Part shown: positions 30,867 to 41,534 of the stretch, piece after piece
How positions within the stretch are numbered: the stretch's first letter is position 1
Layout: the number at the start of each line of letters is the position of its first letter
Source: Terriglobia bacterium
GTDB taxonomy: Bacteria; Acidobacteriota; Terriglobia; Bryobacterales; Bryobacteraceae
NCBI GenBank assembly: GCA_020073115.1
Contig: JAIQFU010000005.1
Span: forward strand, 1 to 43,320
Reading direction: 5' to 3'
Length of the DNA: 43,320 nt
Notes under the pieces: model-generated
What the model was told of the DNA's origin: nothing
Seen by the model: only the letters and a program-made list of their open reading frames with translations
Database searches by the model: none
Made by a program: the position numbers and the translations under genes

Positions 30867-33074
30867 ATGATACTCCGGATTGCTCTGCCGCTCGCTCTCA
30901 TGAGTTCGCTCGTAAACGCGCAGGACGTCGAGCGCCGTATCGACGCGCTACTTTCCCGCATGACCCTGGAGGAAAAACTGGGGCAGATGTCCCAGTCCAC
31001 CTCCATGCGGACGCCCATTTCCGAACCGATCAGAGACGAGATCCGCAAGGGCCGGTGGGGCTCGTTTCTGAACGCCGGCAGCCCCGCGGACCGCGCCGAG
31101 GCGCAGCGCATCGCCCTCAAGGAAAGCCGGCTCGGGATTCCGCTGGTGTTCGGGCGCGACGTCATCCACGGTTATCACACGATCTTCCCGATTCCGCTCG
31201 GCCAATCGGCCAGTTGGGATCCGGAACTGATCCGCGATGCCGCGCGGATCGCCGCGCGGGAAGCGGCGGGTGAAGGCATCCAGTGGACTTTCGCGCCGAT
31301 GATCGATATCGCCCGCGACCCGCGCTGGGGGCGCGTGGCGGAGACATTGGGCGAAGATCCGTACCTCACCAGCGCGCTGGGCGCGGCCATGGTCCGCGGA
31401 TTTCAGGGCGGCTCGCTGGCATCGCCGGACGCGGTGGCCGCCTGCGCCAAGCACTACGTGGGCTACGGCGCGGCGGAAGGCGGGCGGGACTACAACAGCA
31501 CGTGGATTCCCGAGATCCTGCTGCGGCAGGTTTATCTGCCGTCGTTCCGCGCGGCGCGCGACGCGGGCGTGGCTACCTTCATGACCTCCTTCAACGCGCT
31601 GAACGGCGTGCCGGCAACCGGCAACCGCTTCACCTTGCGGCAGGTGCTGCGGGACGAGTGGAAGTACGACGGCATGGTGGTGAGCGACTACACGGCGGTG
31701 ACCGAGATGATCCCGCACGGCTATGCCGCGGACAACGCCGACGCCGCGCGCGAGGCGGCGCTGGCCGGCGTCGACATGGAGATGGTCAGCACCACCTACT
31801 TCGACCACATGAAGGCGCTCATCCAGAGCAAGCAGGTGGACGCGAAGCTGATCGACGATGCGGTGCGCAATATCTTGCGGCTGAAGTTCCGGCTGGGGCT
31901 GTTCGATAACCGTCCGCAGCCCGCGGCGGAAACCCGGCCGGTTGCGGAGGCGCTCGACACCGCGCGGCGGCTGGCCGTGGAATCCGTTGTTCTGCTGAAA
32001 AACGAGGGCAATCTGCTGCCGATTTCCGCCTCCATCGGAAAAGTGGCGGTGATCGGGCCCTTGGCCGACAGCCCCACGGACCAGATGGGCACGTGGGTGA
32101 TGGACGGCCGCGCGCAGGATGTGCAGACGCCCCTGGCGGCGCTGCGGCGGATGCTGGGGCCGGACCGGTTGGTGTATGCGCGCGCCCTGCGCAACAGCCG
32201 GGACAACACCCACGACGGTTTTGCCGCGGCTGCGGACGCGGCGCGCAACGCCGATCTCGCGCTGCTATTCCTGGGAGAGGAGCAGATCCTCTCCGGGGAG
32301 GCGCACTCCCGCGCGTTCCTCACCCTGCCCGGCGCGCAGGAAGCTCTGGTGGAAGAGATCGCCAAGGCAGGCAAGCCGATCGTAGCGGTGATCCTGGCCG
32401 GAAGGCCCCTGACATTCCAGGGCGCCAGTTCCCGGGCCGGCGCAGTGCTTTACGCGTGGCATCCGGGCACGATGGGCGGGCCGGCTATCGCCGATCTCCT
32501 GTTCGGGCGCGCCGCGCCCTCCGGGAAATTGACCATCACGTTCCCGCGCACGGTGGGGCAGGTCCCGATCTACTACTCGCATCTCAACACCGGACGGCCG
32601 CCGTCGCCCGGTGAACTGGGGATCCCGATGGGCAACCCCGTCGAGCCGAAGGGCTACACCTCCAAGTACCTGGACGTGGACTTCACGCCGGAATACCCCT
32701 TCGGATATGGGCTGTCGTACACGGCCTTCGAATACTCCAACCTGAGGCTGTCGGGCGCGACCCTGCGGAGCGGCGGGACCCTAACCGTGTCGGCCGATGT
32801 GGCTAACACCGGGACGCGCGAGGCCGATGAGGTGGCGCAGTTCTATATCCGGGACCTCGTAGCCAGCGTGGTTCAGCCCGTGCGGGCGCTGAAGGGGTTC
32901 CGGCGAGTGCATCTGAAACCGGGCGAGAAGCAGACCGTGCAGTTCACGCTCACGGCCAACGACCTGGCGTTCTACAACGAGCAGGCCAAGCTGGTGACGG
33001 AGCCGGGCCGGTTTCAGGTGTGGGTGGCTCCGGACTCGGCGCGGGGAGTGCCGGGAGAATTCACGCTGGAGTAG
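30867..33074 (+). CDS. Glycoside hydrolase family 3, exported beta-glucosidase (BglX-like)
   Basis: 735 residues with signal peptide MILRIALPLALMSSLVNAQ. The GH3 N-domain starts MTLEEKLGQMSQ, with GIPLVFGRDVIHGYHTIFPIPLGQSASWD and GAAEGGRDYNST. The nucleophile is Asp ~273 in DGMVVSDYTAV. The C-domain includes ESVVLLKNEGNLLPI, FLGEEQILSGEAHSR (acid/base region) and VVAVILAGRPLTF. A fibronectin-III-like domain ends the protein (ADVANTGTREADEVAQFYI). It hydrolyses terminal beta-glucosides, probably in the periplasm. ATG 30867 is chosen because TAGAAT lies 10 nt upstream and the signal peptide starts there. Its last 14 nt overlap the convergent hisA, so no terminator separates the two. Confidence 0.95.
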   Translation: MILRIALPLALMSSLVNAQDVERRIDALLSRMTLEEKLGQMSQSTSMRTPISEPIRDEIRKGRWGSFLNAGSPADRAEAQRIALKESRLGIPLVFGRDVIHGYHTIFPIPLGQSASWDPELIRDAARIAAREAAGEGIQWTFAPMIDIARDPRWGRVAETLGEDPYLTSALGAAMVRGFQGGSLASPDAVAACAKHYVGYGAAEGGRDYNSTWIPEILLRQVYLPSFRAARDAGVATFMTSFNALNGVPATGNRFTLRQVLRDEWKYDGMVVSDYTAVTEMIPHGYAADNADAAREAALAGVDMEMVSTTYFDHMKALIQSKQVDAKLIDDAVRNILRLKFRLGLFDNRPQPAAETRPVAEALDTARRLAVESVVLLKNEGNLLPISASIGKVAVIGPLADSPTDQMGTWVMDGRAQDVQTPLAALRRMLGPDRLVYARALRNSRDNTHDGFAAAADAARNADLALLFLGEEQILSGEAHSRAFLTLPGAQEALVEEIAKAGKPIVAVILAGRPLTFQGASSRAGAVLYAWHPGTMGGPAIADLLFGRAAPSGKLTITFPRTVGQVPIYYSHLNTGRPPSPGELGIPMGNPVEPKGYTSKYLDVDFTPEYPFGYGLSYTAFEYSNLRLSGATLRSGGTLTVSADVANTGTREADEVAQFYIRDLVASVVQPVRALKGFRRVHLKPGEKQTVQFTLTANDLAFYNEQAKLVTEPGRFQVWVAPDSARGVPGEFTLE

Positions 33075-33765
33075 CGTCATCGGGTTGCAGCGCCGCCAGT
33101 TCGTGCAGGCTCAAGCGCCCCGTGTAAATCGCCATCCCCAACGCTGGATTCACGTTCATCGCGAGCAACGCGCGCACCTCGTCCATCGTCGTAATGCCGC
33201 CGGCCGCGGTCAACTCCAGCGAGGTGGCGGCGCGCAGGCGCCGGAACCACGCCAGGTCCGTCCCCTGCATCATGCCTTCCTTATCCACGTACGTGCAGAG
33301 GAAGCCGGAGCAGTAGGGCTCCAGCGACCGGAGGACCTCTTCGGCGACCAGTTCGGTGGACTCCTGCCAGCCCTTCACCACGATGCGGCCGGCTTTGGAA
33401 TCGAGCGCGACGATGATGCGGTCGCGGCCGATGGCCTCGGCCAGAGATTCCAGGAATCCGCCGTTGAGCAGCGCCGCAGTGCCTACAATCACCTTCCGCG
33501 CGCCCTGCTCCATCAGCGCCTGCGCGCGTTCCACGGTACGGACGCCGCCGCCGACGCGCGTTCTGGCCCTGGCCGCCAGCATGCGTACCAGGCCGTCGTT
33601 CGAGCCGCGGCCCAGGGCGGCGTCTAGATCGATCACCTGGATCTCCGGGAAAGCGGCGAAGCGGCGAAGCATCTCTTCGGGAGAATCGGCCTCCAGAGCC
33701 TTCTCGCGGCCCTGGACCAGCTGGACCACTTTCCCGTCCATGAGGTCGATGCAGGGAATGATCAT
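33061..33765 (-). CDS. hisA: HisA, ProFAR isomerase
   Basis: A 234-residue (beta/alpha)8 enzyme isomerising ProFAR to PRFAR in histidine biosynthesis. Signatures: [19 protein letters not shown] with catalytic Asp in [40 protein letters not shown]; and [14 protein letters not shown] with the second catalytic Asp. It is the last gene of the operon, with its ATG overlapping the hisF stop (ATGA). Some relatives (PriA) also serve tryptophan synthesis; the sequence does not decide this. Its 3' end overlaps the convergent GH3 gene by 14 nt. Confidence 0.96.
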
Positions 33766-34523
33766 GCGGGCCTCACGGGGATGCCGCGGCGGTCCAGTTC
33801 CTCTTTGAGCCGGGCGACGGTATAGGTCCCGTAGTGGAAGATGGACGCGGCCAGCGCGGCGTCGGCGCAGCCATCGGTCAGGACCCGGACGAAGTGGTCC
33901 GGCTTCCCCGCCCCGCCGCTGGCGATCACGGGAACGCGCGTGGCGCGCGAAACGGCGCGGGTGAGATCGCAATCGAAGCCCTCCTGGACGCCGTCGGTAT
34001 CCATGGACGTGAGGAGGATCTCCCCGGCGCCGAGTTCCTCGCCGCGGGCGGCCCAGCCGACGGCGTCGATCCCTTCGTCGTCGCGGCCGCCGCGGGTGTA
34101 GACATGCCACTCTCCCGGCGCCTGGCGGCGGGCATCGATGGCCAGCACCACGGCCTGCGCTCCGAATTCCGAGCTGAGCTCCGAAATCAGCTCGGGGCGG
34201 CGCACGGCCGCGGTATTGACCGAGATTTTGTCGGCTCCCGAAAGCAGGATCCGGCGCGCATCGGCCACGGAGCGGATGCCGCCGCCCACCGCCAGCGGGA
34301 TGAAGACCTTGCGCGCCGTCCGCGCCACCACGCCGGCCATGATCTCGCGGGCATCGCTGGAGGCCGTGATGTCGAGAAAGACAAGCTCGTCGGCGCCGTC
34401 GCGGTTATAGCGCTCTGCCAGTTCGACCGGATCGCCGGCATCGCGCAGGGTGACGAAGTTGATGCCCTTGGCCACGCGGCCGGCGGTGACGTCGAGGCAG
34501 GGGATGATGCGTTTCGCTAGCAC
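33762..34523 (-). CDS. hisF: HisF, imidazole glycerol phosphate synthase cyclase subunit
   Basis: 253-residue (beta/alpha)8 subunit that uses ammonia from HisH to convert PRFAR to imidazole glycerol phosphate and AICAR. Motifs: [34 protein letters not shown] (catalytic Asp in CLDV), [54 protein letters not shown] (second catalytic Asp) and [13 protein letters not shown]. The start is GTG 34523, overlapping the end of hisH by 7 nt. It is encoded next to hisH, its obligate partner. Confidence 0.97.
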
Positions 34524-35110
34524 TCGAGGAAATTCCTTACAATCCGCAGCCCCAGAGGTCCCGATTTCTCGGGGTGGAATTGCACTCCGAAGATGTTCTC
34601 CGATTCGAGCGCGGCCGTGTAGGGCAGTTCATACGTGCACGTGGCGGCCGCGCGGGCGTTTTCCTGGACGTAGTAACTGTGTGCGAAGTAGACGAACGGA
34701 TGGCGGCCGAGGCCGCGCAGGAGCCGGGAATCGCCGCGGACTTTCAGTTCATTCCAACCCATGTGCGGCACGCGCGCACCCGGGGGAAACCTGCGGACCG
34801 CGCCTTCGAAAACGCCCAGCCCGCGCACTTCCGGCGCCTCTTCGCTGGTTTCGAACAGCGCCTGCAGGCCCAGGCAGATGCCGAGAAACGGAACGCCGGC
34901 GCGGATCCGGCCGAGCAGGGCTTCGCGCACCTGCAGCGCGTCCAAAGCCCGTATCATCTGGCCGAAATGGCCCACCCCGGGGAGGATGATTTTCGACGCC
35001 CTTCGCAGCGCTTCAGCGTCGCGCGCCAGCGCGTACTCACAGCCGATTTCGCCGAGCGTGTTTTCCACCGAGCGCAGGTTCCCGGCTCCGTAATCGAAGA
35101 TGGCGATCAT
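34517..35110 (-). CDS. hisH: HisH, imidazole glycerol phosphate synthase glutaminase subunit
   Basis: 197-residue class I glutamine amidotransferase that feeds ammonia to HisF. Triad: Cys in [13 protein letters not shown], and His and Glu in [11 protein letters not shown]. It begins [19 protein letters not shown], typical for HisH, with [11 protein letters not shown] for the oxyanion loop. ATG 35110 overlaps the hisB stop (ATGA). Confidence 0.97.
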
Positions 35111-35694
35111 AGCAAGCCCTTGGTGGACGGCAGCTGATCTTTCAGCCGGGCGTCGGTGGAACAGGCGTACTTCATGGCCCGGGCGAAGCACTTGAAAATG
35201 GCCTCGATCTTGTGGTGGCTTGATCGGCCGTACAATACTTTCGCGTGCAGGTTGGCTCCGGCGTGATGGACGAAGCCTACGAAGAAATCTTCGATCAATT
35301 CGGTTTGCAGGTCGCCGACGAGCCGGACTTTCACGAGGTCCTTGTAGACCAGGGCGGGGCGGCCGCCGAGATCGACCGCGACGACCGCAAGCGTCTCGTC
35401 CATCGGCATGACGAAGTAACCCGCGCGGTTGATGCCCTTGCGGTCGCCCAGAGCCTGCGCGAACAATTGCCCGAGGACGATGCCGGCGTCTTCCACGGTG
35501 TGATGCTGATCCACGTCCAGGTCGCCTTCGGCGTGGAGCGTGAGGTCGAAGCCGCCGTGTTTCGCGAACAGCTCCAGCATGTGGTCGAGGAAGCGGATGC
35601 CGGTGGAGATTTCATACCGCCCGCGGCCTTCGATTTTCAGCGAGCCGGCGATGCGGGTTTCCTTCGTATCCCGGCGGACAGACGCGGTCCTCAC
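35107..35694 (-). CDS. hisB: HisB, imidazoleglycerol-phosphate dehydratase (monofunctional)
   Basis: 195 residues converting imidazole glycerol phosphate to imidazole acetol phosphate. Mn-binding histidines: [32 protein letters not shown], and [27 protein letters not shown]. There is no N-terminal HAD phosphatase domain, so a separate histidinol-phosphatase is needed; the HAD gene directly upstream is the obvious candidate. The start is GTG 35694, overlapping the HAD stop (GTGA). Confidence 0.97.
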
Positions 35695-36371
35695 GACGCG
35701 AACACCTCGTGCAGGTAATTGATGTCGTCCACGATGGCATACGCCCTTTCAGCCTGGAACAGAAACACCAGGTCGATGTAGGAGGGGTTCGACGGCCCCG
35801 CAATCCCGATAAACGGAACGCCGGCGGCGCGGGCGCAGCGGGCGTCGTCCACCGTGTCGCCCACGTAGAAGACTTCGCAATCGCAGTTGTCCTTCAGGAT
35901 CCGGAGCAGCCCCTCGGGGTGGGGTTTGTGATTCTCCACTTCTTCCATGGCGATGACGGGGTCGAACACCAGGTTTCCGGCGAAGCGGCGCAGGGTGATC
36001 GCGGCTTCGGCGCGGGGGCGGCCGGTGAAGATGGCGAAGCGGAATCGCTCCGCGAGGCTCTCCAGCGCCCCCGGGCGGCCGATCCACCGCTCCCGCAGGA
36101 TCAGGCCGTCGGACCCGTTTCCGAGAAAGAGCTGCTGAAACCGGTCGTGCACGGCCTCGAAGGGAACGCTTACGCCGGCGTCGGTGACGATCTGGTGAGT
36201 GAGCCGCCAGTCGTCATTGAAGCCGCCGCGATTCTTGTACTCCTGGATCTGTTCGCGCGTGACGGCGGCGCCGGTGAAAGATTCCGCCGTCCGCGCGATG
36301 GTTTCGCGGTACGACTCGGTCACGTCCACCAGCACGCCATCCATGTCGAAGACCAGGATCGGTTTGCTCAT
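35691..36371 (-). CDS. HAD-superfamily phosphatase in the his operon (candidate histidinol-phosphatase)
   Basis: A 226-residue HAD subfamily IA hydrolase. Motif I is [17 protein letters not shown] (nucleophile Asp and +2 Asp). A helical cap follows. Motif II is [12 protein letters not shown], with Lys in NHKPHPEG (motif III) and motif [22 protein letters not shown]. It overlaps hisC (ATGA) and hisB (GTGA) and is thus embedded in the operon. HisB here lacks the phosphatase domain, and no PHP- or IMPase-type histidinol phosphatase is in the window. The protein differs from HisB-N, whose motif I is FIDRDGTL. It resembles the TIGR01548 group as I recall it. The role in removing phosphate from histidinol phosphate is inferred from context only. 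Confidence 0.85.
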
Positions 36372-37453
36372 CGGTTCCAGATCTCTTCCAGGGCGGCCAG
36401 CAGGCGCCGCGTCTGCTCGCGCGTGCCCACGGTGATGCGCACGCAACCGGCGGCTTCGTAACTGCGGTCGCGCACCAGGATGCCCTGCCCGCGCAGGGCG
36501 TCGCGGACTTCGATGGCGCGGTCGCCAAAACGGCCCAGAACGAAATTGGCGGAGCTCGGAATATACGCAATGCCGAGCAGTTCCAAACCCAGGCACAGGA
36601 GTTCGCGCGCGGCCAGCACTTCCGCCACATAGGATTGAATGAACCCGGCGTCCTCCACCGCCGCCTGCGCGGCCAGTACGGCCAGGGAGTTCACGCTGTA
36701 AGGCGACTGCGCTTTGTGCAGGAACGCGACGTTCGCCTCATGTGAAAACAGGCAGCCGAGCCGCATGGCCGCCATCCCAAAGACCTTGGAAAACGTCCGG
36801 CTGACGAACAGGTTGGGGACGCGCTCGATTTCCGTGAGCGCGGTCAGGCCCGAAAATTCGTAGTAAGCCTCGTCCACCAGCACCACTCCCTTGCGCGCGC
36901 GGTGGAGGATGCGCTCGATGCCCAGCAGCGACACTCCCGTACCGGTAGGGTTGTTGGGGTTGGCCAGGATCACAGCGCGGGTCTCGGGCGTTATGGCGTC
37001 GAGCACCTCCTGGAGGGGAAACTCCAGGCCGGGCTGTGGGAACGGCGCCTCGGTGATTTTCGCGCCGGCCACCTCGCAATAGAAGCGGTACATGGCGTAG
37101 GCCGGCTTGAGGAGCACGACTTCCTGGCCGTCGTCGAGGTAGGTGTTGACGAAAACCTGGATGGCCTCGTCGGTCCCGTTGGTGAAGACGAACTGCTCGG
37201 GGCGGACGTGGAAGTACCGGGCAATGGCCTGCTTAGCTTCGCCATATTCGGGGTAAACGGCGAGTCGGCCGGCGTCCAGGCGTTCTTTGAGAGCGGCGAT
37301 GACGCGGGGGGAGCATCCCACGGTGTTCTCGTTGAAATCGAGCCGAAGTTTATCCGCGCGGCCGGCGGTGGGCGGAGAGTAAGGCGCCATGGAGAGGACC
37401 GCGGGCCGGGGCTTGACGGCGCCTTTGGGGAGCTTGAGCGATTTGGCGGTCAT
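36368..37453 (-). CDS. hisC: HisC, histidinol-phosphate aminotransferase
   Basis: 361-residue fold-type I PLP aminotransferase making histidinol phosphate. Motifs: [15 protein letters not shown] near the N-terminus; [50 protein letters not shown]; and [16 protein letters not shown] with the PLP-binding Lys. The C-terminal [16 protein letters not shown] has the substrate Arg. ATG 37453 has a near-perfect AGGAGGT 4-5 nt upstream, so HisC can be made alone. The same frame is open upstream into hisD, so a HisD-HisC fusion may also be produced. Confidence 0.95.
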   Translation of the reverse strand: MTAKSLKLPKGAVKPRPAVLSMAPYSPPTAGRADKLRLDFNENTVGCSPRVIAALKERLDAGRLAVYPEYGEAKQAIARYFHVRPEQFVFTNGTDEAIQVFVNTYLDDGQEVVLLKPAYAMYRFYCEVAGAKITEAPFPQPGLEFPLQEVLDAITPETRAVILANPNNPTGTGVSLLGIERILHRARKGVVLVDEAYYEFSGLTALTEIERVPNLFVSRTFSKVFGMAAMRLGCLFSHEANVAFLHKAQSPYSVNSLAVLAAQAAVEDAGFIQSYVAEVLAARELLCLGLELLGIAYIPSSANFVLGRFGDRAIEVRDALRGQGILVRDRSYEAAGCVRITVGTREQTRRLLAALEEIWNR

Positions 37454-38719
37454 CGGGACCTCCTGTGGGGCGGGGCTTCCGCCCCGCCGCCGGGCTTCTG
37501 CCCGGCGCGCCGGCCGGAAGACCGGCTGCGGCCCGGAAGGGCGGCCCCCCGGAGCCAGCCGCTTCAGCGCCCCTTCGCTCAACTCCTGCACGGAAATCAC
37601 CTTGAGGAAATCGGTTACCGACAGTCCCCCGCGGATGCGCGCGGCGCCGCTGGTCGGCAGCACGTGGTTCGGCCCGGAGGCGTAATCGCCCGCGGCTTCG
37701 GGACTGAACGGGCCAATAAAGACGCTCCCCGCGTGCTTTACCTCGGGGAGCAGGCTCTCATCGGGAATGCTCAGGTGCTCGGGCGCGAACCGGTTGGAGA
37801 TCTCAATGGCCTCGTGGAGCGAGCGCACGAGCACGATGGCCGAGTTCCCGGATATTGCCTGCGAGGCCGTTGGGGCCGTGGGCAGGTCCGCAAGTTGCCG
37901 CTCCACTTCGGCGGCGACGGCCGTGGCGAGCCGCCTGGAGGTGGTCAGCAGGACCGCCGAGGCGTCCACGTCATGCTCGGCCTGGGCCAGCATATCGGCG
38001 GCCAGGAGCCGCGGATCGCCCTCCGCGGCGATGATCAGGATCTCGGTGGGACCGGCGATGAAGTCGATAGCCACCTCGCCCGCGAGCAGCTTCTTAGCCG
38101 CGGCCACGTAGATATTGCCGGGGCCCACAATGCGGTCCGCCCTGGGGACCGGCCCGGCGCCGAAAGCGAACGCGGCAATGGCTTGCGCGCCGCCCATTCG
38201 GAAAGCGTCCTGCACCCCGAGCATGGACGCCGTCCCGAAGACCTCCCCGTTCATACCGGGCGAAGCCACGCAAATCCGCGGGACCCCCGCCACCTGCGCC
38301 GGGACCACCGTCATGATCACGGTGGAAGGCAACGGATACCGCCCCGCCGGAATATAGGCGGCCACGGTATCGAGCGGCCGCACCACCTGGCCCAGGCGCA
38401 GCCCGGGTTTTACGTCGCGCAGCCAAGCCTCGGGCATCTGCCGCTCGGCGAAGGCCCGGACCCCGCTGGCCGCGGTGACCACGGCGTCCAAGAATGCGGG
38501 CGCCAGCCCGCGGCGGGCGGCCAGCAGGTCTTTCGGCGGCACCCGCACGCTCTTGCCGTGGAACCCGTCGAACTTGCGCGCGAATTCCAGGAGCGCGCCC
38601 TCGCCGCCCTTGCGAACCCCTTCCAGAATCGGCGCAACGGCCGCTTCCGCTTCCGTGAGCCGCGCCGCCTTGCGCGTCAGCAGGCACCCGGCTTCCTTGC
38701 TGTTGAGGATGCGAATCAC
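36368..38719 (-). CDS. hisD: HisD with C-terminus replaced by a repeat; open frame continues into HisC
   Basis: Histidinol dehydrogenase oxidises histidinol to histidine in two NAD+ steps. From GTG 38719 about 388 residues match His[41 protein letters not shown] (zinc Gln and His), [11 protein letters not shown] (catalytic Glu-His) and [15 protein letters not shown] (zinc Asp). After [15 protein letters not shown] the usual last ~25 residues, with the fourth zinc ligand (His419 in E. coli), are missing. Instead, 31 Arg/Gly/Pro-rich residues encoded by an 84-bp repeat lead without a stop into HisC, giving a possible 783-residue fusion. GTG overlaps the hisG stop (GTGA). Activity is doubtful unless another hisD exists. 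Confidence 0.9.
37467..37550. repeat. 84-bp multi-hairpin palindromic repeat, copy B (hisD/hisC junction)
   Basis: Four hairpins in a row: GGGGCGG-GGCTT-CCGCCCC (37467-37485), GCCGGGC-TTCT-GCCCGGC (37489-37506), GCCGGCC-GGAA-GACCGGC (37509-37526, one mismatch) and GCCC-GGAA-GGGC (37531-37542). The same order is seen in copy A inside hpnB. It ends just before the hisC ribosome site and occupies the 3' end of hisD. It is the only his-operon junction in this run without overlapping genes. Confidence 0.8.
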
Positions 38720-39585
38720 AGTACGATTTTGTTCAGCGGGTACTCGACGATTCCCTGCCCGCCCGCCTCTTTCAGCCGGGGAATGATGTCGCGCACGGTG
38801 GACTCGTCCAGGATAGTGTTCACCGCCAGCCACTCCTCGTCGCTCAAATGCGAAATGGTGGGCCGCTTCAGCGCCGGCAGGACGTTCAGCACCGCCGCCA
38901 GGTTGTCCCGGTGAACGTTGAGCATCAGTCCCACCTTGCCCAGGGCGTTGATGGCTCCCTCCAAGAGCATTTTGATGTCTTCCAGCTTGCGCCGCTTTTC
39001 GGCGTCCTCCCAAGATTGCCGGTTGGCGATGAGCTGGGTGTTGGATTCGAGCACCGTATCGATGATCTTCAGCTTATTGGCGCGCAGCGAGGAACCCGTT
39101 TCGGTTACCTCCACGATGGCGTCGGCCAGCACCGGGGGCTTCACTTCCGTGGCGCCCCAACTAAACTCCACTTTCGCGGTGACGCCGTGCGCGGCCAGGT
39201 ACCGGCGCGTGGCGCCCACCAGTTCCGTGGCGATGATTTTGCCTTGGAGGTCCTTCACGGTATGGAAGCCGGAGGATTCCGGCACGGCCAGGACCCAGCG
39301 GACTTTTCCGAAGCTCTGCTTGGCGTAGATCAGGTCCGCCACGGCCACCACGTCGGCTTCGTTTTCTTCCACCCAGTCGCGGCCGGTGAGCCCCGCGTCG
39401 AGAATTCCGTCTTCCACGTAGCGCGCCATCTCCTGGGCGCGGATCAGCATGCACTCGATATCGGGATCGTCAATGCCGGGGAAGTAGGAGCGGCTGGCGG
39501 TGGTGATGGCGAAGCCCGCCCGGCGGAAGAGGTCGATGGTGGCGCTTTCCAGGCTGCCCTTGGGAATGCCGAGCTTGAGCTTCAT
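38716..39585 (-). CDS. hisG: HisG, ATP phosphoribosyltransferase (long form)
   Basis: 289 residues; first step of histidine synthesis, condensing ATP and PRPP. Motifs: [57 protein letters not shown], and the PRPP loop region [21 protein letters not shown]. The length and the C-terminal ~75 residues ([26 protein letters not shown]...) show the regulatory HisG_C domain. This is therefore the long, histidine-inhibited form that does not need HisZ. ATG 39585 overlaps the hisI stop (ATGA). Confidence 0.97.
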
Positions 39586-39962
39586 GCCTTGCCTCCGTAG
39601 ACCGCGCCCGGATCGTAGGCCCGCTCCTCCGAGGTCTTCCACGCACCATCTTCGAGACGGCGGAAGAAGCAGCTCACATATCCTTCGTGGCACACGCCGG
39701 GACCGAGCGCTTCCACTTTGACCAGGATGGCGTCGCGGTCGCAGTCGGTCGAGATCTCTTTTACGACAAGCCGGTGCCCGGAGGTCTCGCCTTTGATCCA
39801 GAGCTTGCGCCGCGAGCGGCTGTAGAAGGTGACAAAGCCCGTTTCCACGGTTTTGCGGAAGGCTTCTTCGTTCATGTACCCGAGCATGAGGACACGGCCG
39901 GTGGCGTGGTCCTGAATGACCGCCGGCGCCAGGCCGTCCGCTTTTTCGAAATCCAAGGTCAT
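39582..39962 (-). CDS. hisI: HisI, phosphoribosyl-AMP cyclohydrolase (monofunctional)
   Basis: 126 residues opening the purine ring of PR-AMP. Motifs: [19 protein letters not shown], the aromatic-rich [22 protein letters not shown], metal-binding [13 protein letters not shown] (three Asp) and [13 protein letters not shown] (zinc Cys). There is no HisE domain, and hisE is absent from the window. It is the first structural gene of the operon. ATG 39962 comes 12 nt after the attenuator U-run, without a clear Shine-Dalgarno sequence. Confidence 0.96.
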
Positions 39963-39970
39963 CGTGTGAG

Positions 39971-40002
39971 CAATAAAAAAGCCCGCCGTTTTCGCGGCGG
40001 GC
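39971..40002 (-). terminator. his attenuator terminator hairpin (segments 3:4)
   Basis: On the minus strand GCCCGCCG (40002-39995) pairs perfectly with CGGCGGGC (39988-39981) around a CGAAAA loop, followed by TTTTTTATTG. It lies between the leader peptide gene and hisI, so termination here would prevent expression of the whole operon. Confidence 0.92.
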
Positions 40003-40027
40003 GTCCTTTCCGATGGTATGCGTGAGA

Positions 40028-40096
40028 TTAGGACAAGGCCCGTCGCGTGAAGGCGTGATGATGATGATGGTGATGCCGGGCGACGGCCAGTGTCAT
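40028..40096 (-). CDS. hisL: his leader peptide with seven consecutive His codons
   Basis: 22 codons and a TAA. The peptide starts MTLAVAR, has seven His in a row (CAT CAC CAT CAT CAT CAT CAC) and ends AFTRRALS. It is followed by a Rho-independent terminator and then hisI. A run of His codons in front of a his operon identifies it as the regulatory leader; the peptide itself has no other expected role. TATACT lies 8 nt before the ATG, so the transcript may begin at or next to the start codon. Confidence 0.92.
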
Positions 40097-40119
40097 AAAC
40101 TTCGAGTATAGCAAAAGGC

Positions 40120-40190: not shown

Positions 40191-41534
40191 ATGAAGCGGC
40201 TGTTCATCGGAGTGACGTGCCTGGCGTTGATTCTCGCGCCGTCCGGTTTGGCGCAACGCAAGGCGCGAAAGAAGGCGCCCGCCAAGACTGCGGCCCCCAC
40301 GGTTCCGGCCGACAAATGGCCGATTGCCACGCTCGCGGTAGACGGAAATCAGGTGTATCCCACGCGGGAGATCCTGGCGATCGCCGGTTTGAAGATCGGG
40401 CAACTCGCCGGGAAAGAGGAGTTCGACGCGGCGCGCGACCGCCTTCTGGCAAGCGGCGCGTTTGAGACGGTCGGCTATAAGTTCGCGGCCGCCGCGAATG
40501 GGAAGCAATACGCCGCCACGTTCCAGGTTACCGAGGTGCAGGCGCTCCCCGTCCGCTTCGAGGACCTGGGCGCGCCGGATGCCGATCTGGAAGCCATGCT
40601 GCGCGCCAGGGACCCGCTGTTCTCCATCGACCGCGTTCCCGCCAGCAAGCCGGTGATGGAGCGCTACAGGCGGTGGATCTCGGAATACCTGGCATCCAAG
40701 GGCCTGGACAGTAAAATCGACGGGAGCGTTACGCCGTGGCCGGAGAAGATGGCGATCGTCTTCCGGCCTCTGAAGAGACTCCCCGCGGTGGCCCAGGTGA
40801 CCTTCGAAGGCAACCAGTCCGTTCCGCAGGATGCGCTGCGCAGGGCAATCGCCGGGGCGGCCATCGGAGCGCCCTACCGGGAGGACCGCTTCCGCGAGAT
40901 TCTGGAATCCTCCATTCGGCCCGTCTATGAAGCGCGCGGCCGCGTGCGCGTGGCGTTCCCCAAGGTCCGCACGGAGCCCGCCAAAGACGTGGAAGGGCTG
41001 CACGTTTTCGTCACCGTGAGCGAAGGCGAGATCTTCAAGCTGGGGCGCGTGGAAGTGGTTCCTCCCACGCCGCTCCGCCCCGCGGAGCTCCTCAAAACCG
41101 GCGACTTCAAAACCAATGACGTGGCCAATTTCGATCGCGTCAAGGAAGGCCTCGAGAACATCCGCAAGGCCGTGCGCCGCGCCGGCTACCTGGACGTGAA
41201 TGTCACGACGGACCGCAACATCCACGACGCGGAGAAGACGGTGGATCTGGCCGTTCGCGTCGATGCCGGACCGCAGTACGCCATGGGGAAGTTGAACATC
41301 GTCGGGCTCGACCTGGACGGCGAAGCGGAGATGCGCCGCATCTGGGGTTTGAAGGAAGGCAAAACGTTCGACCCGGAGTATCCGGACGTCTTCCTCACCA
41401 CCGCGCGCGGCATGTTCGACAACCTGGGGGAGACGAAAGCGGAAACGAAGGTGGACGAAGAGAAGCGAACCGTGGATGTGACGTTGAGGTTCGCGGGAAG
41501 CGCGCCATCCACTACGCGGAAAAAACAACTTTAG
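40191..41534 (+). CDS. Exported POTRA-repeat protein (BamA N-terminal-like, no barrel)
   Basis: 447 residues with signal peptide MKRLFIGVTCLALILAPSGLAQ and a basic linker (RKARKKAPAK). About four POTRA-like beta-alpha-alpha-beta-beta repeats follow: ATLAVDGNQVYPTREILAIAGLKIGQ (~45-115), AQVTFEGNQSVPQDALRRAIAGAAIG (~198-265), FKLGRVEVVPPTPLRPAELLKTGDF (~280-350) and MGKLNIVGLDLDGEAEMRRIWGLKEG (~365-440). It ends after the last repeat, with no 16-strand barrel, so unlike BamA it is a periplasmic protein. It may help barrel assembly or bind outer-membrane partners. TACCAT lies 9 nt before the ATG. It is divergent from the his operon. Confidence 0.85.
   Translation: MKRLFIGVTCLALILAPSGLAQRKARKKAPAKTAAPTVPADKWPIATLAVDGNQVYPTREILAIAGLKIGQLAGKEEFDAARDRLLASGAFETVGYKFAAAANGKQYAATFQVTEVQALPVRFEDLGAPDADLEAMLRARDPLFSIDRVPASKPVMERYRRWISEYLASKGLDSKIDGSVTPWPEKMAIVFRPLKRLPAVAQVTFEGNQSVPQDALRRAIAGAAIGAPYREDRFREILESSIRPVYEARGRVRVAFPKVRTEPAKDVEGLHVFVTVSEGEIFKLGRVEVVPPTPLRPAELLKTGDFKTNDVANFDRVKEGLENIRKAVRRAGYLDVNVTTDRNIHDAEKTVDLAVRVDAGPQYAMGKLNIVGLDLDGEAEMRRIWGLKEGKTFDPEYPDVFLTTARGMFDNLGETKAETKVDEEKRTVDVTLRFAGSAPSTTRKKQL

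Follow-up and report, generated by a model that had tools for sequence, protein, structure and literature searches.

A predicted histidine-specific transcription attenuator upstream of the his genes in Bryobacteraceae and other Acidobacteriota

A compact RNA device, which is very probably a histidine-specific, ribosome-mediated transcription attenuator, precedes the histidine biosynthesis genes in the stretch of acidobacterial DNA analyzed here (43,320 nt, hereafter the window). The original prediction, made from the letters alone, had placed the device at positions 39971 to 40110, and these coordinates proved right, with the device reading on the minus strand. The features that define this class of attenuator are found together at the locus: a His-rich open reading frame (ORF) whose translation is predicted, 2:3 and 3:4 pairings that exclude each other, and a terminator located before the first structural gene. 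The case is built on the sequence elements, their conservation in relatives and the folding predicted for each position of the ribosome, and from these we infer where transcription starts, that the ribosome stalls, that transcripts terminate and that the device responds to histidine. An acidobacterial host had likewise been assumed, in agreement with family loci that match Bryobacteraceae records, e.g. Candidatus Sulfopaludibacter SbA3.

Organization of the leader region and the his cluster

Between positions 40113 and 39962 the minus strand carries, in this order, an extended -10 element, the leader ORF, a GC-rich hairpin with a T6 run, and hisI (Table 1). The leader is the one originally read from the letters, 22 codons with seven histidines in a row, and it ends in a stop codon at the 3' edge of segment 2. 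The terminator stem (40002-39981) comprises eight G-C pairs and a loop of six nucleotides followed by T6; the hairpin ends 18 nt upstream of hisI, and about 65 nt separate the leader stop from the hisI start. Since the neighboring gene on the other side is divergent (40191-41534, plus strand), the terminator cannot serve an upstream gene but only a transcript heading into hisI. A scan for sigma-70 promoters requiring a -35 box found no promoter, and the sequence suggests an extended -10 promoter. A plus-strand ORF at 40013-40111, which is the antisense of the leader, was rejected as unsupported.

Table 1 Features of the putative attenuator and the his gene cluster in the window.
Feature	Position	Strand	Evidence
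Putative extended -10 promoter element TGC-TATACT (TGCTATACT)	40105..40113	-	sequence
Leader peptide gene, 22 codons, ATG to stop	40028..40096	-	sequence and conservation
Seven consecutive His codons, CAT CAC CAT CAT CAT CAT CAC	40055..40075	-	sequence
Segment 1, GGCCGUCGC, partner of segment 2	40080..40088	-	fold; own 1:2 pairing beats swapped partners
Segment 2, CGCGACGGGCCUUGUCC, overlapping the last codons of the leader	40030..40047	-	fold and family alignment
Segment 3, GGACGCCCGCCGCG; predicted antiterminator with segment 2, terminator with segment 4	39993..40006	-	fold and co-variation with both
Predicted intrinsic terminator: stem 40002-39995 / 39988-39981 (segment 4), U6 39980-39975	39975..40002	-	terminator scan, fold, covariation
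hisI, phosphoribosyl-AMP cyclohydrolase, first structural gene	39582..39962	-	NCBIfam NF000768, 152.1 bits (cut-off 126)
hisG, start approximate	38716..39600	-	TIGR00070, 176.6 bits; TIGR03455
hisD and hisC, single uninterrupted frame as assembled	36368..39013	-	TIGR00069, 439.8 bits; TIGR01141, 289.7 bits
HAD-family hydrolase, probable true start around 36371	35691..36596	-	Pfam HAD_2, 1.7e-20; TIGR01548, 133.8 bits (below cut-off 140.2)
hisB	35107..35694	-	NF002111, 256 bits
hisH	34517..35191	-	TIGR01855, 207.7 bits
hisF	33762..34523	-	TIGR00735, 364.3 bits
hisA, ORF as listed, domain from about residue 116	33061..34110	-	TIGR00007, 180.4 bits (below cut-off 228.95, yet best family)

The downstream cluster had been described as a nine-gene his operon, and profile matches identified all nine genes, in the order hisI, hisG, hisD, hisC, a HAD hydrolase gene, hisB, hisH, hisF and hisA. 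The frame that holds both hisD and hisC encodes 881 amino acids, with the HisD match ending about 20 positions before the end of the profile, and represents either a fusion or an assembly frameshift. The HAD hydrolase gene is placed between hisC and hisB, no other histidinol-phosphate phosphatase was seen in the cluster, and its product may be the histidinol-phosphate phosphatase of the cluster. No hisE was seen within the cluster.

The arrangement is not a product of chance, and conservation is the stronger evidence for this. Shuffles of the window gave an expectation of 0.00 for at least five consecutive His codons, and the sole run of five His codons inside a short ORF in the whole 7.2-Mb genome is that of the leader; the other genomic runs of five all lie within long frames and were discarded, none being a leader. 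Terminator-like sites numbered 0.3 in shuffles of the region, and the fold of the 148-nt region (z = -2.7) was equaled by none of 200 shuffles.

Conservation in Bryobacteraceae and beyond

The family sample comprised 101 genomes, in which the sequence preceding hisI was examined at 91 loci, including that of the window. Conservation of the His run in relatives had been proposed as a check on the device, and the run is conserved in 81 of these 91 loci, taking as criterion a leader ORF with at least four His in eight residues, and far beyond the family. Five more loci have three His, and a convincing leader is absent from five of the 91 (L048, L050, L065, L067 and L068). Leaders with at least three His form a scored set of 87, in which the entry from L068 is a chance ORF rather than a leader, and the terminator is present in all 87. 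The family consensus reads TATACT-n(5)-TTC-ATG, then the His codons, GCGnCGGGC, and finally AAAGGAnGCCCGCCGC-loop-CGGCGGGC-T6; the number of His residues varies, and the run is sometimes interrupted.

The same set bears on the 5' end of the transcript. A -10-like hexamer with at least four of six matches to TATACT precedes 78 of the 87 leaders, compared to 15% for shuffled upstream sequence; in 69 leaders its distance to the ATG is 8-9 nt, and in 72 it carries a TG extension. The three bases preceding the ATG are mostly pyrimidines (TTC or TTT), and motifs resembling a Shine-Dalgarno sequence are rare (13% of family leaders). The spacing of the -10 hexamer, the pyrimidines before the ATG and the scarcity of such motifs together suggest that transcription probably starts 0-3 nt from the leader ATG, which would make the leader gene leaderless.

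In L067 and L068, from a Bryobacteraceae genus denoted g2, TATACT leads straight into GGAATTGGAAAGGA and the terminator, the leader ORF and segments 1-2 having been lost. The motif AAAGGA (window 40004-40009), which lies directly before the 5' arm of the terminator and is conserved in relatives according to the family alignment, can pair with UUCU or GUCC of segment 2, and it is retained in L067 and L068 although segment 2 is missing there; judging from its retention, the motif may have a second role beyond pairing with segment 2.

Loci that keep promoter and terminator without the leader and segments 1-2 would suit a fixed terminator or a small RNA gene, giving rise to a constitutive short transcript alongside a leader ORF of no regulatory function. 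A permissive Rfam scan also returned weak small RNA matches, which together with matches to Thr_leader were the only ones obtained; all were below threshold, were driven by the terminator and were rejected. A constitutive transcript would not explain, however, why the His codons and segment 2 are conserved across many genera, nor why the leader always precedes the first his gene, and we consider this explanation very unlikely.

Beyond Bryobacteraceae we chose the loci ourselves, one or a few per family. Within the same class the device recurs in the majority of the other families: the leader was found before hisI in 14 of 14 loci of family f2, 10 of 10 of f66 and 8 of 11 of f65, and in the small samples of f67 (2/2), f63 (1/1) and f70 (1/1). 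In f72 it occurs in four of 12 loci, the gene order being the same, and it was absent from all 12 sampled loci of f64, f68 and f69. With few exceptions these 12 differ in gene order and in hisG, to which the short-form profile gives the higher score. The loci concerned (L124-L126, L150-L157) look as if the entire his operon had been replaced. In other classes of Acidobacteriota the leader was present in about 15 of 44 loci, before whichever of hisI, hisG or hisD comes first. The background frequency of such His-rich short ORFs elsewhere in the same DNA is 0.0033 per 450 nt. Trp-rich leaders before trpE were also sought in the relatives, and none was seen in place.

Poly-His peptides generally bind Ni and Zn, and the His-rich peptide could itself be the active product, for example by binding metal ions, with its location before the his genes being incidental. 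Against this, the residues outside the His run follow the RNA pairing, as in three families whose segment 2 encodes RRA, CQRA or CQWA, and CPRR, respectively. Moreover, the number of His residues is variable, interruptions are tolerated, and the gene always stands before his genes, so that a function of the peptide as such appears exceedingly improbable.

Competing pairings and the proposed switch

Folding and the terminator scan recovered the 1:2, 2:3 and 3:4 pairings and the U-run terminator in the order originally described before the his cluster. The predicted 1:2 helix, GGCCGUCGC with GCGAC-GGCC, encloses the His codons, which had accordingly been placed correctly in the 1:2 loop. The 2:3 antiterminator (-21.5 to -22.1 kcal/mol in the window) and the 3:4 terminator (about -19) are predicted to be mutually exclusive, segment 3 being common to both.

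Compensatory change, a further check that had been proposed, likewise upheld the device: the terminator covaries and segment 2 tracks segment 3 across families, although covariation of the 2:3 pairing taken alone within the family does not rise above shuffles. For the terminator, the covariation score inside the family exceeds those of all 500 shuffles. The null result for 2:3 within the family alignment is attributable to the invariant core CGGGC/GCCCG and to the poor alignment of helix 3, and partner swaps and anchored flanks were therefore tested instead. The resulting p-values treat related sequences as independent and are to be taken as support, not as exact probabilities: the segment 3 of a leader is paired better by the segment 2 of that leader than by those taken from other families (p = 1.5e-10) or from the same family (p = 0.009), and the segment 3 positions flanking the CCCG anchor covary both with segment 4 (p about 0.0005) and with segment 2 (p about 0.0015 at the first position and 0.0005 at the second). 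Segment 3 differs between families, with segments 2 and 4 changing alongside. One flanking base, for example, is C in the family of the window, where segment 4 has G and segment 2 has A or G; L122 and L158 have G at this position, facing C in both partners. The adjoining base, C facing G in both segments, is replaced in f65 by T facing A in both.

Folds of the free RNA were then compared for the two ribosome positions. With the ribosome on the His codons, 2:3 was formed in 81 of 86 family leaders and 43 of 47 others, and a ribosome placed at the stop allowed the terminator to form in 85 of 86 and 45 of 47, i.e. in 130 of 133 leaders. Pairing of 2:3 in the stalled state was obtained for 93% of leaders, compared to 56% when segment 2 was shuffled.

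In the proposed mechanism, RNA polymerase would initiate at most a few bases away from the leader ATG and be followed by a ribosome translating the leader. If His-tRNA is scarce, the ribosome would stall at the His run and cover segment 1, 2:3 would form before segment 4 is synthesized, and the terminator would be pre-empted, allowing transcription of the his cluster. If His-tRNA is plentiful, the ribosome would reach the stop and hide segment 2, leading to formation of 3:4 and termination. It is the position of the stop codon at the 3' edge of segment 2 that would let a finishing ribosome hide this segment whereas a stalled one leaves it free. Without translation both 1:2 and 3:4 would form, and transcription would stop. 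Because 3:4 usually beats 2:3 at equilibrium in the relatives, the switch would have to be kinetic.

Stalling might instead act on translation, either by altering access to the hisI start or by permitting re-initiation, the hairpin then being no regulated terminator. The leader stop lies close enough to hisI to make this conceivable, and re-initiation at leader genes has been proposed for Acidobacteria among others (PMC4833913). However, a strong hairpin with a U-run is found in 87 of 87 family leaders and 47 of 49 leaders outside Bryobacteraceae, the complementarity of segment 3 to both segments 2 and 4 is maintained, and the hairpin is positioned upstream of the hisI start (median distance about 19 nt) without covering it. 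Control at the level of translation is hence unlikely, and these features argue for attenuation of transcription.

Relation to known attenuators

No Rfam family reached its gathering score anywhere in the window, including His_leader (RF00514) and the T-box (RF00230). For RF00514 there was also no match up to E = 10 in the region and none in 61 family genomes (0/61), while the E. coli control was positive. A histidine T-box, or another RNA sensing tRNA or a metabolite, would have precedents in that some his genes of Firmicutes and Actinobacteria are under T-boxes (PMC9413887, PMC3896937), but with no family at gathering score and no T-box among the matches of the region up to E = 10, there is scarcely any likelihood of such an RNA here.

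The mechanism of ribosome-mediated attenuation is already known; what is new is this member and how far it extends, and probably also the leaderless start. Similar to the hisL attenuator of E. coli and Salmonella (RF00514), the device combines seven His codons in a short leader with alternative pairings and a terminator before the his operon. In contrast to hisL, four segments suffice, and the first gene is hisI instead of hisG. The leader ATG in E. coli lies inside a 5' UTR, whereas here it follows the -10 box by about 8 nt.

The original prediction regarded his attenuation as best known from Gammaproteobacteria, a view that needs widening, since His-leader attenuators have been predicted in several Firmicutes, namely in the Bacillus cereus group, Peptostreptococcaceae and Erysipelotrichales (PMC9413887) and for hisZ/hisS* in bacilli (PMC2965389). 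These, too, are non-proteobacterial leader peptides with terminator and antiterminator, known by comparison only; they belong to another phylum and to few species each, whereas the device described here is conserved across one family and much of its phylum. Leader ORFs beginning at the transcript 5' end also have counterparts, with measured 5' ends, in the leader-peptide attenuator trpL of Sinorhizobium meliloti (PMC7298713) and in mycobacterial poly-Cys leaderless ORFs, the latter as cited in PMC13236596. The codons there are for Trp or Cys in place of His, and in the present case the -10 spacing points to the 5' end.

In a comparison from 2005, the regions preceding actinobacterial histidine operons showed no conserved RNA structure (PMC1262725), and a wide-ranging screen for attenuators had functions for almost none of those in Acidobacteria (PMC2965389). 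No description of a his attenuator in Acidobacteriota was found in Rfam or in the literature searched, a search with most subscription journals outside its scope, which leaves priority unproven. A survey relying on Rfam models arrived at a possible gammaproteobacterial origin of amino-acid attenuators, with hardly any transfers (PMC3766115). A conserved his attenuator that spans the phylum and is missed by Rfam suggests that this picture stems from the models and not from nature. The device furthermore predicts, in mechanistic terms, how amino-acid control may work in a soil phylum that is dominant and poorly studied, and with more than 100 comparable leaders the frequency at which such switches evolve can now be addressed.

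Little sequence is retained in leaders of this kind, and shared descent with the enterobacterial device therefore cannot be read from them. We tentatively put forward, as a possibility with less than even chances, that leaderless four-segment his attenuators constitute a separate type, which would have arisen in Acidobacteriota independently of the proteobacterial one, would have been present early in the phylum, and would have disappeared wherever replacement or rearrangement affected the his operon. Similar leaders were also seen before hisI in three contigs labeled Armatimonadetes (L226), Ferrithrix (L225) and Cyanobacteria (L294), reflecting either mislabeled bins or horizontal transfer.
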